A stretch of 40,626 nt of DNA from Gemmiger sp. (GTDB taxonomy: Bacteria; Bacillota; Clostridia; Oscillospirales; Ruminococcaceae), in the NCBI GenBank assembly GCA_028710135.1, contig JAQUSS010000010.1:1-40626 (forward strand). Reading direction: 5' to 3'. Positions 3,707 to 33,762 of this stretch are shown piece after piece (within the stretch, counting starts at the first letter, position 1; each line of letters begins with the position of its first letter). The notes below the pieces were generated by a model. The model was not told where the DNA came from, did not search any database, and worked only from the letters and a program-made list of their open reading frames with translations. Position numbers and translations under genes: made by a program.

Positions 3707-5017
3707 CTATGCGTGGCCATTCCCCGCTTTGCCCCCGCCTAAGGGGAGCAAAACGCTGAACACCGTTGCCCCACCGCCGCTTTCCGCCTTGATGCCGCCG
3801 TGGTGCTGCTGGGTGATTGCCCTGGCAATGGCCAAGCCCAGCCCGTATCCCCCGGCGCTTCGTGCGCGGGAACGGTCAGCTCTGTAAAACCGCTCAAACA
3901 GGTGGGGCAGTTCCTCCGGCGGGATATCCGCGCCGGTATTTTCCACTTGCAGCAGGGCGTTTTGCCCCTGCGCACGTAGGCGAACCGTCACCACCTTTTC
4001 CCCGGTGGCATACTTGCAGGCGTTATCCACCAAAATGGCCACCAACTGCTTGAGCTGCCCACCATCCCCCTGCATGGCCACGCCCGGGGCCACCTGCGTT
4101 TCCAGGGTAATCCCCCCCTCAAACGCAACCGATTCAAAAGATAGCGAACTGCTCATCACCGTGTCCGAAAGGTCAACCCGCCCCAGCGCCACCGGGGCAC
4201 GGGCTGCATCGGCGCGGGCCAAAAACAGTAGCGCATCCACCAGCTTTTTCATCCGTGCCCCCTCGGCCTGTATCCCGTCCAGCCATTTTTGCTGCTCCGC
4301 CACGGTATCGCCGGGGTGGGCCTGCACAATGCTGGCGTCCGCCATAATCACGGTAAGGGGGGTTTTTAATTCATGGCTGGCATCGGCCACAAACTGCCGC
4401 TGTTGCTCCCACGCCTGCTCCACTGGGCGCACGGCCATCCGTGCCAGATAGATGCTGATGCCCAGCAGCGCCAGCAGCGCCGCTGCCACCACCCCCGCCA
4501 ACCGCAGCCCTATGCTACGCAGGGCTGCCAACTCCGCGGTGCTATCCGCAAAGGCAATTTTGGTACCGTCCGGGGTGTTTTGGGTCAGGTAGCGCAGGTA
4601 CGGGTTTTGGATGCTGCCGCTCTCCTTCCCGCTTGCCAAAACCTCCGCCACCAGCGCCGCCAAGGTATCCTCGGTAATGTCTACACTCTCCACGTTGCTC
4701 TGGGTAATGGTGCCGGTGCTGTCGGTTACCGCCCAAAACACTGCTCGGTTTTCCGTGCCGCCACCACCCGGGTTCACGCCGGGCCGAGCACTGCCCCCAA
4801 GCGCCCCCAAATCCAGCGCGCCCACCGCGCGCTTGGTAATCTCGGGCTTCTGCTGCCCGATACCTGGCTGGTCAATCGCCCGGTATAGGGCGCTCATGGT
4901 GTCGCCTCGCTGCTGGCGCGCGGTAAAAAACAGCATCACCACGCAAATACCAAGCAACACCGCCCCCACCAGCGCCATGGTCATGGCAACAAATTTGCGC
5001 CGCAGCTGGCGAATCAT
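3707..5017 (-). CDS. OmpR-family-partner sensor histidine kinase
   Basis: Membrane histidine kinase, 436 residues. Transmembrane segments lie near residues 11-32 and 172-192 and frame an extracytoplasmic sensing domain of about 135 residues that matches no known sensor by eye and has a Gly-rich stretch at 80-87. After a short linker the HisKA H-box FVADASHELKTPLTV gives His215 as the likely phosphorylation site. The catalytic ATPase domain shows the N-box DNACKYA and the G-box GYGLGLAIA. Its ATG overlaps the regulator TGA by four bases (ATGA), showing tight co-translation with the upstream response regulator. Its stimulus is unknown; the divergent polyphosphate/DUF4956 operon is its most likely target through the partner regulator. 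Confidence 0.93.
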   Translation of the reverse strand: MIRQLRRKFVAMTMALVGAVLLGICVVMLFFTARQQRGDTMSALYRAIDQPGIGQQKPEITKRAVGALDLGALGGSARPGVNPGGGGTENRAVFWAVTDSTGTITQSNVESVDITEDTLAALVAEVLASGKESGSIQNPYLRYLTQNTPDGTKIAFADSTAELAALRSIGLRLAGVVAAALLALLGISIYLARMAVRPVEQAWEQQRQFVADASHELKTPLTVIMADASIVQAHPGDTVAEQQKWLDGIQAEGARMKKLVDALLFLARADAARAPVALGRVDLSDTVMSSSLSFESVAFEGGITLETQVAPGVAMQGDGGQLKQLVAILVDNACKYATGEKVVTVRLRAQGQNALLQVENTGADIPPEELPHLFERFYRADRSRARSAGGYGLGLAIARAITQQHHGGIKAESGGGATVFSVLLPLGGGKAGNGHA

Positions 5018-5688
5018 CCCTCCACCCCCAGCCGGTAACCCACCTTGCGCTGGGTGGTAATGCCCACACGGGAACCTAAAAAAGCAAATTTTTTCCGCAA
5101 AAAAGAGATGTACGCCTCCACATTATTATCCTCCGCGCCGGATTCCGTCCCCCATACCCGGCTAATTAAGGTATCCTTCAGCACCACAATGCTGGGGTTC
5201 GACATAAGTATCCGCAGCACCTCAAACTCCTTAAACCCCAAATGTACGCTTTTCTCGGCTCGGGTAAGGTCGTAGGTGGAAAGATTCAAGGTTAAATCGT
5301 CATAGCACAAGGTTTCAAGCTGCACCTCCCCCTGCCTGCGGGCAAGCGCCCGCACCCGGGCAAGCAGCTCCTCGGGGGAAAAGGGCTTGGTCATATAATC
5401 ATCCGCGCCACAGTCCAGGCCGTTCACCTTGTCCCGCACCTCATCCCGGGCGGTCAACAGCAGAACCGGTGTCGCATTTTTTTCCTCCCGCAGCCGGCGC
5501 ACCACCTCAAACCCGTTCAGCTTGGGCAGCATCACATCCAACACCACTACGTCATACTGCCCGCTGCGGGCATAGTCCAGGCCATCGGCCCCATCATACA
5601 CCACATCGGCTGCATATTTTTTCTCTGCCATAATCTGGCCAAGGGCATCTGCCAGCCGAGCCTCATCCTCCACCACCAATACCCGCAT
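5014..5688 (-). CDS. OmpR/PhoB-type response regulator
   Basis: Receiver plus winged-helix DNA-binding protein, 224 residues. The acidic pocket is EDE near residues 7-9, the phospho-acceptor is Asp51 in VVLDVMLP, followed by LLLTARD and the conserved Lys of MTKPF. The C-terminal half has the OmpR winged-helix pattern (LGFKEFEVLRILMSN, then SFLRKKF and TQRKVGYRL). Start: ATG 5688 gives the family-standard MRVLVVEDE and has AGAGGA just upstream; an in-frame ATG at 5715 with AGGAA also fits and would add nine residues. It is transcribed with the sensor kinase and away from the VTC operon. The direct repeats between them are the right spacing for its own binding site, an inference. Confidence 0.93.
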   Translation of the reverse strand: MRVLVVEDEARLADALGQIMAEKKYAADVVYDGADGLDYARSGQYDVVVLDVMLPKLNGFEVVRRLREEKNATPVLLLTARDEVRDKVNGLDCGADDYMTKPFSPEELLARVRALARRQGEVQLETLCYDDLTLNLSTYDLTRAEKSVHLGFKEFEVLRILMSNPSIVVLKDTLISRVWGTESGAEDNNVEAYISFLRKKFAFLGSRVGITTQRKVGYRLGVEG

Positions 5689-5766: not shown

Positions 5767-5806
5767 AGCGGTTTTGCCGGCTAAAATTTTGCCTTACTTT
5801 TTGGTA

Positions 5807-5888
5807 TGCCCAGTATACGCCCCCAACCTGAAAATACCCTGAAAGCCATTTTTCAGACTATTTTCAGCCAAGGGCGCTATACTGGGCA
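5807..5888. promoter_or_regulatory. Symmetric 82-bp divergent operator with mirrored -10 boxes
   Basis: The element is symmetric about 5847.5; 29 of the 41 position pairs are complementary. Outer arms are TGCCCAGTATA (5807-5817) and its complement (5878-5888). Inner arms hold CTGAAA at 5828 and 5839 and TTTCAG at 5851 and 5862, each pair spaced 11 bp as in OmpR/PhoB half-sites. TATACT lies at 5878-5883 on the plus strand and, mirrored, at 5812-5817 on the minus strand, each 10 bases beyond the nearest half-site. No good -35 box accompanies either, as expected for activator-dependent promoters. The neighbouring response regulator is the obvious candidate ligand. Confidence 0.7.
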
Positions 5889-5915
5889 CACCACGAACAA
5901 AGGAGGCTTATTTCC

Positions 5916-6695
5916 ATGAAAAACCAAACGGTCTTCCGCCGAATCGAAAAAAAATATCTACTTACCCAGGCCCAGTTCGATGCACTTTGGCCTGTTTTGA
6001 TGCGAATCATGCAGCCCGACGAATATGGCCGGCATACCATCTGCAATATTTACTACGATACCCCCGATTATCGGCTGATTCGCACCTCGCTGGAAAAACC
6101 GGTCTATAAAGAAAAGCTGCGGCTGCGCAGCTACGGTGTGCCCGGCCCCGCTTCCACCGTTTTTGCCGAGCTTAAAAAGAAGTATAAGGGCGTTGTGTAT
6201 AAGCGGCGGGAGGGAATGCCCCTTGCCAATGCCGCCCCTTACCTGGCCGGGGGTGGGCTGCCGGGGCCACACAGCCAAATTTTAAAAGAGATTGATTTTT
6301 TCCTTGCCTTTTGGCAGCCACAGCCCAAAGTGTTTCTGGCCTATGACCGTATCGCCCTTTTCAGCCCGGAATCCCCTTCGCTTCGCGTTACCTTTGATGC
6401 CAACATTCGCTGGCGTACCGGCGATGTCGCGCTTGAAAAGGGGGATGCCGGTGCCCCGCTCCCCCTGGCAGGCAGCTTTTTGATGGAGGTAAAAATCCCC
6501 GATGCCATGCCGCTGTGGATGGCACGCGCTTTCTCCCTGCTGGGAATTCACCCCACCAGCATCTCCAAATACGGCAGCTGCTACACCACCTGCCTGCTGC
6601 CCCGCTTGCTTGCCCAGCGCAACACCACCCGCAGCCCACAACCCCAGCCCAAACCGGGTTCCAACCAACAAATCGGAGGTTTTTACTGTGCTTGA
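5916..6695 (+). CDS. VTC-domain polyphosphate polymerase-like protein
   Basis: A 259-residue protein resembling the VTC catalytic tunnel domain, which in yeast Vtc4 makes polyphosphate from ATP. Visible are the N-terminal RIEKKYLLT, NIYYDTPDY with downstream basic residues, EKLRLRSYG, and the acidic/basic strand pattern FAELKKKYKGVVYKRRE typical of triphosphate tunnel folds; the late strand SFLMEVKIPDAMPLW carries the conserved Glu. No membrane segment or SPX domain is seen, so it is probably cytoplasmic and works with the next gene. Ribosome site AAAGGAGG lies nine bases before the ATG. Its end overlaps the DUF4956 gene by eight bases. Whether it truly makes polyphosphate in bacteria with this gene order is not shown by sequence. 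Confidence 0.88.
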   Translation: MKNQTVFRRIEKKYLLTQAQFDALWPVLMRIMQPDEYGRHTICNIYYDTPDYRLIRTSLEKPVYKEKLRLRSYGVPGPASTVFAELKKKYKGVVYKRREGMPLANAAPYLAGGGLPGPHSQILKEIDFFLAFWQPQPKVFLAYDRIALFSPESPSLRVTFDANIRWRTGDVALEKGDAGAPLPLAGSFLMEVKIPDAMPLWMARAFSLLGIHPTSISKYGSCYTTCLLPRLLAQRNTTRSPQPQPKPGSNQQIGGFYCA

Positions 6696-7362
6696 TAGTA
6701 TTTTCACCAGCTATACCACATCCATCACCCTGCCCCAGGTACTGGTTTGTACCCTTGTATCCTTGGCGCTGGGCCTTGCCTGCGCGGGGGTCTATATGTT
6801 CCGCACACGGTACAACAAAAGCTTTGTGGTAACCTTGGTTTTGCTGCCTGCGGTGGTGCAAATGGTCATTATGCTGGTAAACGGCAACGTTGGCACCGGC
6901 GTGGCGGTGGCGGGGGCTTTCAGCTTGGTTCGCTTCCGCTCTCTACCCGGCAGTGCGCGGGAAATTGGCAGCATTTTCCTAGCCATGGCGGTGGGCCTTG
7001 CCACCGGCACTGGGTATTTGGGGGTTGCCGCCGTGTTTGTGCTGTTGCTGGGCGGCGCTTCCCTGTTGCTGAACGCCAGCCCCTTCGGCAATTGCCCCAG
7101 CGAGGAAAAGGAGCTGAAAATTTCGGTTCCCGAAGCGCTGGAATATGAGGACGCTTTCGGTGACCTTCTCGCCCGCTACACCCAGCAAGCCACGCTGGAA
7201 AGTGTAAAAACCACCAATATGGGCAGCCTGTTTGAGCTGCGATACCGGGTGCAGCTTCGCGCCGGGGTAAGCGCCAAGGCATTTTTGGACGACCTGCGCA
7301 CCCGCAACGGTAACCTTACCGTGCAGCTTGCGCGCCTTTCCCCCCGGGAGGATCAACTATAA
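6688..7362 (+). CDS. DUF4956 membrane protein
   Basis: A 224-residue protein with about four membrane segments in its N-terminal 130 residues, then a soluble C-terminal domain of roughly 90 residues (ELKISVPEALEYEDAF onwards). The signature stretch GTGVAVAGAFSLVRFRSLPG between hydrophobic segments identifies the DUF4956 family, whose genes regularly neighbour VTC-domain genes. Start: GTG 6688 has GGAGG at 6675-6679, while the open frame reaching back to 6502 lies inside the VTC gene and lacks a ribosome site. The eight-base overlap implies coupled translation. A role as membrane partner or exporter for the VTC product is inference. Confidence 0.87.
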   Translation: MLDSIFTSYTTSITLPQVLVCTLVSLALGLACAGVYMFRTRYNKSFVVTLVLLPAVVQMVIMLVNGNVGTGVAVAGAFSLVRFRSLPGSAREIGSIFLAMAVGLATGTGYLGVAAVFVLLLGGASLLLNASPFGNCPSEEKELKISVPEALEYEDAFGDLLARYTQQATLESVKTTNMGSLFELRYRVQLRAGVSAKAFLDDLRTRNGNLTVQLARLSPREDQL

Positions 7363-7472: not shown

Positions 7473-9671
7473 ATGAAGCATACCAACAAATTTTTGGCCC
7501 TTCTCTGTGCCACGGCTCTATTTGCCGCCTCCCTAGAGGGCTGCGCCGCCGGCACAAGCACAAGCATCACGGGCAGCGCGGCCAACAGCGCGGCCACCGC
7601 TTCCGCAAGCAGTTCGGCCACATCGGCCACCGCCCTGAGCGCCGTCGCGGTGGAATACACCGACCGAGATAAAGATACCACCTGGGATGCCGCCTCTGCG
7701 GTCACCATCTCCTGTAGTGGCACCGATGCCACCATCACCGGGGGCGGTGCCACCCTGCAAAACGGGGTTCTCACCATCACAGCGGCAGGCAGCTACCTGC
7801 TTTCTGGCAGCCTGGACGGGCAAATTCTTGTAAACGTAGCCGATACCGACAAGGTACAGCTTGTATTCAACAACCTTGCCGTCACCTCGCCCGATGGGCC
7901 TGCTTTGTACATCCAGGCGGGTGATAAAATTTTTGTCACCCTAGCCGAGGGCAGCCAAAATTCTCTGGCCGATAGTATCACCTACACCCTGGCCGAAGGG
8001 CAGGACGAGCCAAACGCCTGTCTGTATTCAAAAGCCGATCTAACCATCAACGGCACCGGCAGCCTGGACGTAACGGGCAACAAAAACCACGGCATTTTCA
8101 GCAAGGATGACCTAAAAATCACCGGTGGCGAAATCACCGTCAACGCCTTGAACGATGGCATAAAGGGGAAAGACTGCGTTGCCATCTGCGCGGGCACCAT
8201 CACCGTTGTGGCCGGTGGGGATGGCATCCAGGCCAGCAACACCGAGGATGCCACCCTGGGCTGGGTCAGCATTGACGGCGGGCGGCTAACCATCACCGCC
8301 GATGGCGATGGCATCCAGGCCGAAACCGTGCTACAGCTTAACCCCGAAACCCTGGCCATCACCGCAGGCGGCGGCAACGCAAACGCTGCGGCCAAGGCCG
8401 GCAGCACCGAAACGATGGGCCACGGTGGGATGGGCGGCAGGCAGCCCGGCAATGCCGCTGTGGGTACCGATTCCGCCAATACCACCGCACCCGCCCTGCC
8501 TGGCAGCGGGAACCCCGATGCCAGCACCGATGCTACCCCGCCGGATGGCAGCACCGAAGCCGCCCCGCCCGATGGTAGCGCCGGGGCCACCCCACCCGAC
8601 GAGAACCCCGATGCCGCCCTCGCAAGCACGGCATCGGGGTCCAACGCCCCCGCCACGGCGGCCACCACCGAAACAAACGAAACGAACGAAACAAACACTA
8701 CCGACGAGAACAGCGCCAAGGGTTTGAAAAGCACCACCCTGCTGGTGGCAGGCGGAACCATCACGGTGGACGCGGCAGACGATGCCCTTCATGCCAACGG
8801 CAACGCTACCATCGCGGGCGGCTACCTAACCCTTGCCAGCGGGGACGATGGCATTCATGCCGATTCTACCCTGTGCATTGCGGGGGGCAATGTTGAAATT
8901 ACCACCAGCTATGAAGGGCTGGAGGGAAGCGATATTGAGATTACCGGCGGCTATATTGCCCTGGCCGCCACCGACGATGGGCTGAACGCCGCAGGCGGCA
9001 ACGATAGCTCGGGCTTTGGCGGAATGTTTGGGCAAGACAACTTTACCGATAGCAGCAGCCTTAGCGGAGAATCCCAGCTCAATATTTCAGGTGGCACGCT
9101 GATTGTCAACGCCCAAGGCGATGGGCTGGACTCGAACGGTGCCATCACGGTATCCGGTGGTGTGGTGTTGGTCAGCGGCCCCACCAATGATGGCAACGGG
9201 GCAATTGATACCGGCACCGCCGCCACCATTACCGGCGGCATCGTGGTGGCAGCGGGTGCCAGCGGGATGGCCGTCAACTTTGATTCCAGCAGTACCCAGG
9301 GTAGTTGGCTTGCCAGCACCGGCAGCCAAACGGGCGGCACCACCCTTACCCTGGCGGACGAAACCGGCAACATCCTAGCAAGCTGGGCACCCGCCAAAGC
9401 CTATAGTTGCGTGGTGGTAAGCTGCCCCGGCATGGTTGCGGGCGGCAGCTATACCTTAAGCTGCGGCGGCACCGTAGCCCAAGCGGATTCAGACGGCTTT
9501 GCCGCAAACGGCGCCCTGGCCAGCGGCACCCAGGTTGCCGCCACCACCCTTACCACCTTAACCCAAAGCGATATAACCGCCACCATGGGCAGCAGCAAAG
9601 GTGGCGGTGGCGCTGGCGCTGGCATAAACGGCGGTAAGGGGATGGGCAACGGCGCTGCCCCCACCGGCTAA
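7473..9671 (+). CDS. Cthe_2159-like carbohydrate-binding beta-helix lipoprotein
   Basis: A secreted 732-residue protein. The signal peptide ends in LEGC, a lipobox with an unusual Glu at -2, so Cys24 is the likely lipid anchor. Residues about 60-290 and 420-640 are short beta-strand repeats (ITGGEITVNALNDGIKGKD, VAGGDGIQAS, ASGDDGIHADS) of the right-handed beta-helix type found in the Cthe_2159 family, which binds acidic polysaccharide such as polygalacturonate. A low-complexity Pro/Asp/Gly/Thr linker (about 295-415) interrupts the helix, with repeated PPDGS units and ETNETNETN. The C-terminus is Gly-rich without a sortase motif. AAAAGGAG precedes the ATG. It ends the VTC-DUF4956 operon, 110 bases after DUF4956. 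Confidence 0.85.
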   Translation: MKHTNKFLALLCATALFAASLEGCAAGTSTSITGSAANSAATASASSSATSATALSAVAVEYTDRDKDTTWDAASAVTISCSGTDATITGGGATLQNGVLTITAAGSYLLSGSLDGQILVNVADTDKVQLVFNNLAVTSPDGPALYIQAGDKIFVTLAEGSQNSLADSITYTLAEGQDEPNACLYSKADLTINGTGSLDVTGNKNHGIFSKDDLKITGGEITVNALNDGIKGKDCVAICAGTITVVAGGDGIQASNTEDATLGWVSIDGGRLTITADGDGIQAETVLQLNPETLAITAGGGNANAAAKAGSTETMGHGGMGGRQPGNAAVGTDSANTTAPALPGSGNPDASTDATPPDGSTEAAPPDGSAGATPPDENPDAALASTASGSNAPATAATTETNETNETNTTDENSAKGLKSTTLLVAGGTITVDAADDALHANGNATIAGGYLTLASGDDGIHADSTLCIAGGNVEITTSYEGLEGSDIEITGGYIALAATDDGLNAAGGNDSSGFGGMFGQDNFTDSSSLSGESQLNISGGTLIVNAQGDGLDSNGAITVSGGVVLVSGPTNDGNGAIDTGTAATITGGIVVAAGASGMAVNFDSSSTQGSWLASTGSQTGGTTLTLADETGNILASWAPAKAYSCVVVSCPGMVAGGSYTLSCGGTVAQADSDGFAANGALASGTQVAATTLTTLTQSDITATMGSSKGGGGAGAGINGGKGMGNGAAPTG

Positions 9672-33632: not shown

Positions 33633-33660
33633 CCCCCTGCCCCGCCCCGGCACCACCCTA

Positions 33661-33717
33661 AAAACCCCGCAGCCCCCGCCTTAGGTTTGTGCCTAAGGCG
33701 GGGGCTGCGGGGTTTTT
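33661..33717. terminator. Very strong terminator of the ABC operon
   Basis: A 25-bp perfect stem (33661-33685 with 33692-33716), loop TTTGTG, ending in five T residues. It also bounds the convergent glycosyltransferase-like gene. Confidence 0.92.
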
Positions 33718-33762
33718 GCTATTTTGTTGGTATTTTATTATTTTGTTGCTGTTCACTTGTAT

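Follow-up and report, generated by a model that had tools for sequence, protein, structure and literature searches.

Mirrored candidate activator sites between a two-component system and a VTC operon in Gemmiger sp.

We find a compact pair of putative back-to-back promoters (positions 5812 to 5883) in a 40,626-nucleotide stretch of Gemmiger sp. DNA, which we analyzed as a whole and call the window. Judged from sequence, these promoters are very probably activator-dependent, with the response regulator encoded next to them (5014 to 5688) activating its own operon and a divergent VTC operon together. This reading is built on the computed geometry of the element, the conservation of its sites upstream of related regulators, the association of the sites with the neighboring gene, and their presence at VTC operons unlinked to the regulator.

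Layout of the element and its flanking genes

The element (5807 to 5888) sits between two divergent operons, a two-component system to the left on the reverse strand and a VTC operon to the right on the forward strand. The regulator gene (5014 to 5688, reverse) encodes Response_reg and Trans_reg_C domains (Pfam PF00072 and PF00486, both above cut-off). Among the 25 NCBIfam models listed out of 102, no match reached the cut-off. Downstream of it lies the gene of a sensor histidine kinase with HisKA and HATPase_c domains (Pfam; 3707 to 5017, reverse). A single gene run on the forward strand encodes a VTC-domain, polyphosphate-polymerase-like protein (5916 to 6695; PF09359), a DUF4956 protein (6688 to 7362), and a protein with a Cthe_2159-type carbohydrate-binding domain (7473 to 9671; PF14262), making this a VTC-DUF4956-Cthe_2159 operon by Pfam. 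The GTG start at 6688 is placed from the ribosome-binding site, the PF16316 match having been obtained on a longer frame (6502 to 7362). A comparison of the VTC protein with solved structures returned no VTC structure and a single unrelated weak match.

An earlier sequence-only reading had described the element as symmetric about position 5847.5. The axis is exact: compared with its reverse complement, the element agrees at 58 of 82 positions, against a mean of 21.0 (s.d. 6.0) over all 82-base stretches of the window, and ranks second, with only a hairpin at 33648 scoring higher. That stretch (33650 to 33718), by eye a GC-rich hairpin and then a T-rich run directly 3' of a transporter-permease-like gene, looks like an ordinary terminator. 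As a test against chance, the conservation of the sites described below weighs more than this symmetry.

The finer geometry bears out what had been proposed. CTGAAA starts at 5828 and 5839 and TTTCAG at 5851 and 5862, an exact 11-bp step on each side; TATACT occurs on both strands; and exactly 10 bases separate each site from its nearer -10 box. The predicted regulator sites, each TTTCAG-N5-TTTCAG on its own strand, are thus located at 5828 to 5844 (reverse), facing the regulator gene, and at 5851 to 5867 (forward), facing the VTC operon. Their starts are 23 bp apart, the centre between them spans 6 bp (5845 to 5850), and the four half-sites follow one another in steps of 11, 12, and 11 bp. 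The -10 box of the VTC promoter lies at 5878 to 5883 (forward) and that of the regulator-kinase promoter at 5812 to 5817 (reverse). We predict transcription of the regulator operon to start at an A at 5805 (reverse), seven bases past the -10, on the grounds of this spacing and of how often an A stands there (44/68 and 44/58 aligned sites), and that of the VTC operon, from spacing, at an A preceded by C at 5890 (forward).

Arms at both ends (TGCCCAGTATA and TATACTGGGCA), which the same reading had included in the symmetry, are exact in the window. The five bases past each -10 box, TGCCC (5807 to 5811) and its partner GGGCA (5884 to 5888), fall outside the conserved design and are not kept in relatives; in 28 aligned elements the symmetry over these five positions is 0.257 vs 0.249 for permuted pairs (p = 0.44). 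We therefore rejected the outer arms as a functional part and, as judged from these alignments, take them to be incidental and peculiar to the window.

Neither window promoter has a -35 box matching at more than 3 of 6 positions, and the -35 match in relatives is no better than in shuffled sequence (means 2.2 and 2.4 of 6 vs 2.5 and 2.5), making activation the likeliest mode of control. The phosphorylated regulator would bind each TTTCAG-N5-TTTCAG as a head-to-tail dimer, replace the missing -35 contact from 10 bp upstream of the -10, and recruit RNA polymerase in both directions, such that the signal sensed by the kinase would raise the two-component operon itself (positive feedback) together with the divergent VTC-DUF4956-Cthe_2159 operon. 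The layout of an activator promoter and a spacing like that of CiaR sites (in excerpts of PMC3091779) lead to this picture of one phosphorylated regulator activating both operons; that the adjacent regulator binds there, that it activates and does not repress, and that both promoters fire at once are the parts that we infer, along with the signal.

Conservation among related regulators and their neighbors

A protein search with the regulator gave 576 candidates encoding a relative, of which we took the best 80 loci from named genomes; by their titles these come from several clostridial families, and their regulators share 64 to 78% identity with the query over the best-matching segment. Sites were defined as CTGAAA-N5-CTGAAA with at most one mismatch and the upstream region as the 400 bp before the regulator. 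The site density is 3.94 per kb in these regions (126 in 32,000 bases) and 0.035 per kb elsewhere in the same 80 loci (22 in 634,803 bases). An upstream site is present in 67/80 loci, compared with a mean of 0.2 and a maximum of 2 in 20 dinucleotide shuffles. Sites facing the regulator occur in 65 loci and sites facing away from it in 52 (shuffle means 0.1 each), and in 27 of the 80 there is a mirrored pair whose starts are separated by exactly 23 bp (shuffle mean 0.0). The sequence-only reading had named a comparison with relatives as a check that it could fail, and the half-sites and their 11-bp spacing are indeed kept. Hexamers, 11-bp step, 10-bp gap to the -10, mirrored layout, and flanking genes are kept together, with a mixture of TTTCAG and TTTAAG at the half-sites. 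TAnnnT follows exactly 10 bp past 65/70 regulator-facing and 45/60 divergent-facing sites in relatives, the remaining 15/60 divergent-facing sites lacking it at that distance. Across 28 elements, identity is 97% in the hexamers, 74% in the -10 boxes, and 37% at other positions. The recognition-helix stretch of the regulator, DNNVEAYISFLRKKF, is near-invariant across all 81 rows of the regulator alignment.

No such site was found within 400 bp upstream of the regulator in 13/80 loci. Two of these, L028 and L036, have the 23-bp pair farther off: one gene separates the regulator from VTC, and the pair has remained beside VTC. At these loci and at L136, a gene of 257 to 277 aa, GNAT-like by eye, lies between the 23-bp element and the regulator and has apparently been captured into the regulator operon. 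A one-mismatch regulator-facing site also accompanies a 66% identical regulator at L088, from Gordonibacter sp. 28C, by its name outside the clostridia.

We further compared the sites with the divergent neighbor in 81 loci, the best 80 relatives plus the window, grouped as VTC (37), SLH-domain protein (14), and others (30). A divergent-facing site is present in 36/37 loci that encode VTC divergently, counting the window, in 14/14 with a divergent SLH gene, and in 5/30 with other neighbors (Fisher p = 2e-12 for VTC vs other neighbors), and pairs with the exact 23-bp distance occur in 29/37, 1/14, and 0/30, respectively. L082, the sole VTC locus lacking a divergent-facing site by this definition, carries one with two mismatches at the 23-bp spacing. 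The gene nearest the element need not be VTC: at L009, a GT2-GtrA gene lies between the two. In the SLH loci (L042 to L066, from Lacrimispora/Hungatella and similar; assigned by Pfam in 3/14 and grouped by similarity in the remainder), the SLH gene replaces VTC and the mirrored site lies at more variable distances. L043 was grouped with SLH by similarity, but its gene is more than 1 kb away and it has no site, and it is counted among the 30 others. The loci share ancestry: in tree-based independent contrasts on supported branches, out of 5 VTC/non-VTC contrasts, an average of 2.4 have the site changing along with the neighbor and 0.0 in the opposite direction, which with so few contrasts is not significant.

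Start-to-start distances between the two sites in relatives cluster at 21 to 24 and then at 31 to 34, 41 to 43, and 51 bp, with seven further loci at 66 to 308 bp. We tested helical phasing with spacings of 22 to 24 bp excluded and those above 60 bp left out (hence without these seven loci). Nine non-redundant spacings among named relatives give p = 0.003 to 0.007; six new ones from the DNA-only search described below (20, 33, 33, 34, 44, and 50, with 20 and 50 off phase) give 0.16 to 0.25 alone; and all 15 pooled give 0.001 to 0.002. These sequence data are only suggestive of whole-turn steps between the sites and of a possible dimer contact. We tentatively raise the possibility that the four half-sites form an array on one helix face (11, 12, and 11 bp), in which two dimers might touch across the axis and the promoters switch as a unit, selection keeping 23 bp or near whole turns beyond it (31 to 34, 41 to 44).

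The two sites of one element also resemble each other outside the hexamers. Their N5 spacers are alike at 0.70 vs 0.53 for permuted pairs (0 of 2,000 permutations), and the five bases just outside the sites show a mirrored likeness of 0.46 vs 0.36 (p = 0.001), the likeness one would expect if both sites follow the preference of one regulator. The centre, the far outer positions, and the arms past the -10 boxes are no more symmetric than permuted pairs.

Sites away from the regulator gene

We searched by DNA pattern alone in 397 genomes belonging to the same family as Hungatella hathewayi (L049, genome G536), which is not the family of the window. The search found 14 elements in 14 genomes (4 already among the named loci, 4 more judged so from sequence, and about six new), and 14/14 lie beside a regulator of the same type (46 to 73% identity), 7 with VTC, 4 with SLH, and 3 with neither at the locus.

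VTC operons unlinked to the regulator were sought in 23 genomes, picked from the 44 named loci where no VTC gene adjoins the regulator, and 10 of these genomes have VTC elsewhere. The site with its -10 correctly placed is found in 6/6 genomes in which the roughly 1.5 kb retrieved to either side of VTC shows no other regulator, and in 0/4 whose VTC gene lies beside a different regulator (43 to 48% identical). The six sites start 85 to 99 bp upstream of the VTC match, and have 0, 0, 1, 1, 1, and 2 hexamer mismatches; no other of the 72,888 positions tested comes within two mismatches. Several of these six genomes are closely related, and one, G536, had already matched in the ten-genome scan described next. 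The presence of these six sites argues against the site simply having travelled along with the regulator gene. Two VTC operons beside a different regulator (L182 and L183; 43% and 48% identical) have in common the string TTCAATTAGGGTTG upstream, which may be the code that the different regulator reads.

A scan of ten regulator-bearing genomes for the site plus -10 returned 1 to 4 matches each, 22 in total, against 1 in total for a reversed-pattern control. One genome has single matches ahead of a CotH gene (L160) and of a GT2-GtrA gene (L154); further single matches stand before a VTC operon unlinked to the regulator (L140), a different response regulator gene (L141), and the gene of a Beta-lactamase2-domain protein (L144). 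On this pattern evidence, these genes are probable targets besides the regulator and its neighbor. Four matches (L148, L152, L153, L161) have no convincing gene behind them.

In the genome of the window (assembly 88% complete), TTTCAG-N5-TTTCAG-N10-TAnnnT occurs only at the element, in its two copies, such that the regulon may consist of just these two operons. The third exact CTGAAA-N5-CTGAAA of the genome (C20:1301) appears to lie inside a coding stretch by our own reading of the sequence and was set aside. VTC proteins are present in 89/148 genomes of a family sample, and the element (up to two mismatches) in 4/148, the window's own included. A random sample across the class has it in 2/391, again counting the window's own, which places the element in the lineage of the regulator and not in the class at large. 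Element and regulator agree in 12/13 hand-picked genomes: five with element and VTC have the regulator (64 to 100% identity), and six with VTC and no element lack it at E up to 1e-60. G118 encodes a 57% identical regulator, yet has no mirrored element, and the only same-genus genome examined, G054, is without VTC, regulator, and element. Among 30 family VTC loci fetched, four (L101, L103, L108, L114) have a single one-mismatch site and no adjoining regulator of this type; the site of L103 falls within the VTC match, and the genome of L101 (G006) has no such regulator at E up to 1e-60.

Alternative readings and known systems

The sites overlap the usual -35 location, as would be expected if the regulator acted by repression, blocking RNA polymerase over the -35 region and releasing both operons on leaving. 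The window promoters, however, have no -35 to block and relatives have no more of one than shuffled sequence, and the published search rule in the excerpts of PMC3091779 has the same site-to--10 gap in promoters that CiaR activates, so we regard repression as unlikely. Somewhat less probable still is that control extends only to the regulator-kinase promoter, with symmetry or common descent having produced the VTC-facing copy as a by-product. Regulator-facing sites occur in 18/30 other-neighbor loci vs 5/30 for divergent-facing ones, which indicates that self-control can stand alone, and the tree contrasts are too few for significance; against this, a separate -10 lies 10 bp from the VTC-facing copy, and the site recurs at unlinked VTC operons in 6/6 eligible genomes and at 36/37 VTC loci.

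Binding by a different OmpR-family regulator of the cell, to which we give slightly less credence again, would be in keeping with the paralogues in the genome, one beside TTTGAG-N5-TTTGAG and another whose gene is preceded by a CiaR-like box, and with the single one-mismatch sites at a few VTC loci lacking the adjacent type of regulator. The sites nevertheless accompany that type in 67/80 relatives and are absent at VTC operons beside different regulators (0/4), and the recognition-helix stretch hardly varies in the 81 rows. The palindrome could finally be a structural element (RNA hairpin, terminator, or cruciform), given its 58 symmetric positions and the mirrored bases just outside the sites in relatives. 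We reject this as extremely improbable, because in relatives symmetry at the centre, far outside, and past the -10 boxes stays at the permuted level, strong conservation is limited to hexamers and -10 boxes, and sites without a mirror copy occur at other loci. Activation of both operons by the adjacent regulator remains the reading that we favor.

The sequence-only reading had placed the sites with the OmpR/PhoB type. Their layout, a direct repeat with a step of about 11 bp just upstream of the -10, and the domains of the adjacent regulator support this, but CiaR/PmrA boxes are a more exact likeness than generic OmpR/PhoB sites. In excerpts of PMC3091779 and PMC9603419, the CiaR boxes of Streptococcus CiaRH are TTTAAG-N5-TTTAAG with a -10 ten bases on, and transcription is taken to start seven bases past the -10, often with a C before the start. 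The element shares the 11-bp hexamer step, the 10-base gap (10 and 10 in the window; 65/70 and 45/60 in relatives), and the predicted start spacing. It departs from NTTAAG-N5-TTTAAG in having TTTCAG at all four window half-sites, with a fourth base C that is sometimes A in relatives, in its recognition helix (VEAYISFLRKKF here, VEVYVSKVRKKL published for CiaR), and in its targets, the mirrored pair serving a VTC operon where the excerpts name csRNA and htrA genes for CiaR. The likeness to the CiaR type, closer than to generic OmpR/PhoB apart from the TTTCAG hexamer, lies in box and spacing.

The PmrA boxes of enterobacteria, bound by an OmpR/PhoB-family regulator, have head-to-tail half-sites CTTAAG / NTTAAT with five bp between them (excerpts of PMC3973317); in our comparison of the half-sites, the arrangement and five-bp separation agree, whereas hexamer, host group, and targets differ. 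BAS0540-BAS0541 of Bacillus anthracis is described in excerpts of PMC4938410 as the closest CiaRH homologue there, its phosphorylated regulator binding NTTAAG-N5-TTTAAG, including at its own promoter; VTC has 0 occurrences in the main text of that paper, and its excerpts report no mirrored pair. Grouping of VTC-domain genes with CotH is described for NELoc-2 of Clostridium perfringens (excerpts of PMC2879425), with no two-component system or site linked to it in the excerpts of PMC2879425 and PMC4983038. An autoregulated two-component system with CiaR/PmrA-type direct repeats is therefore of a kind already known. In our searches of an open-access collection, we found no paper on TTTCAG hexamer sites of a response regulator, on the mirrored element, or on a link between such a regulator and VTC/DUF4956.

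Through a predictable DNA code, the element would connect one two-component system with a gene set of anaerobic Firmicutes that has received little study: VTC, DUF4956, and Cthe_2159, joined in single cases by CotH and a GtrA-type glycosyltransferase. How bacterial VTC operons are controlled, and what their physiological role is, would then become testable via the signal that triggers this kinase, and the fixed mirrored spacing offers a compact natural case for probing whether back-to-back activator dimers cooperate.

Related boxes occur elsewhere in the genome of the window. On contig C181 (L130:1501-1600), a second OmpR-type regulator gene is preceded by the CiaR-like box TTTAAG-N5-TTCAAG-N10-TATAAT, with about 50 bases between the end of the -10 and the ATG; the box is probably that regulator's own autoregulatory site. 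Contig C37 (59508 to 61544; L123, L139) carries a kinase and a paralogous regulator (43% identical, with a TAG stop inside the match), adjoined by TTTGAG-N5-TTTGAG-N10-TATGCT before a gene that is hydrolase-like by eye; this may be a sister system using a different hexamer.
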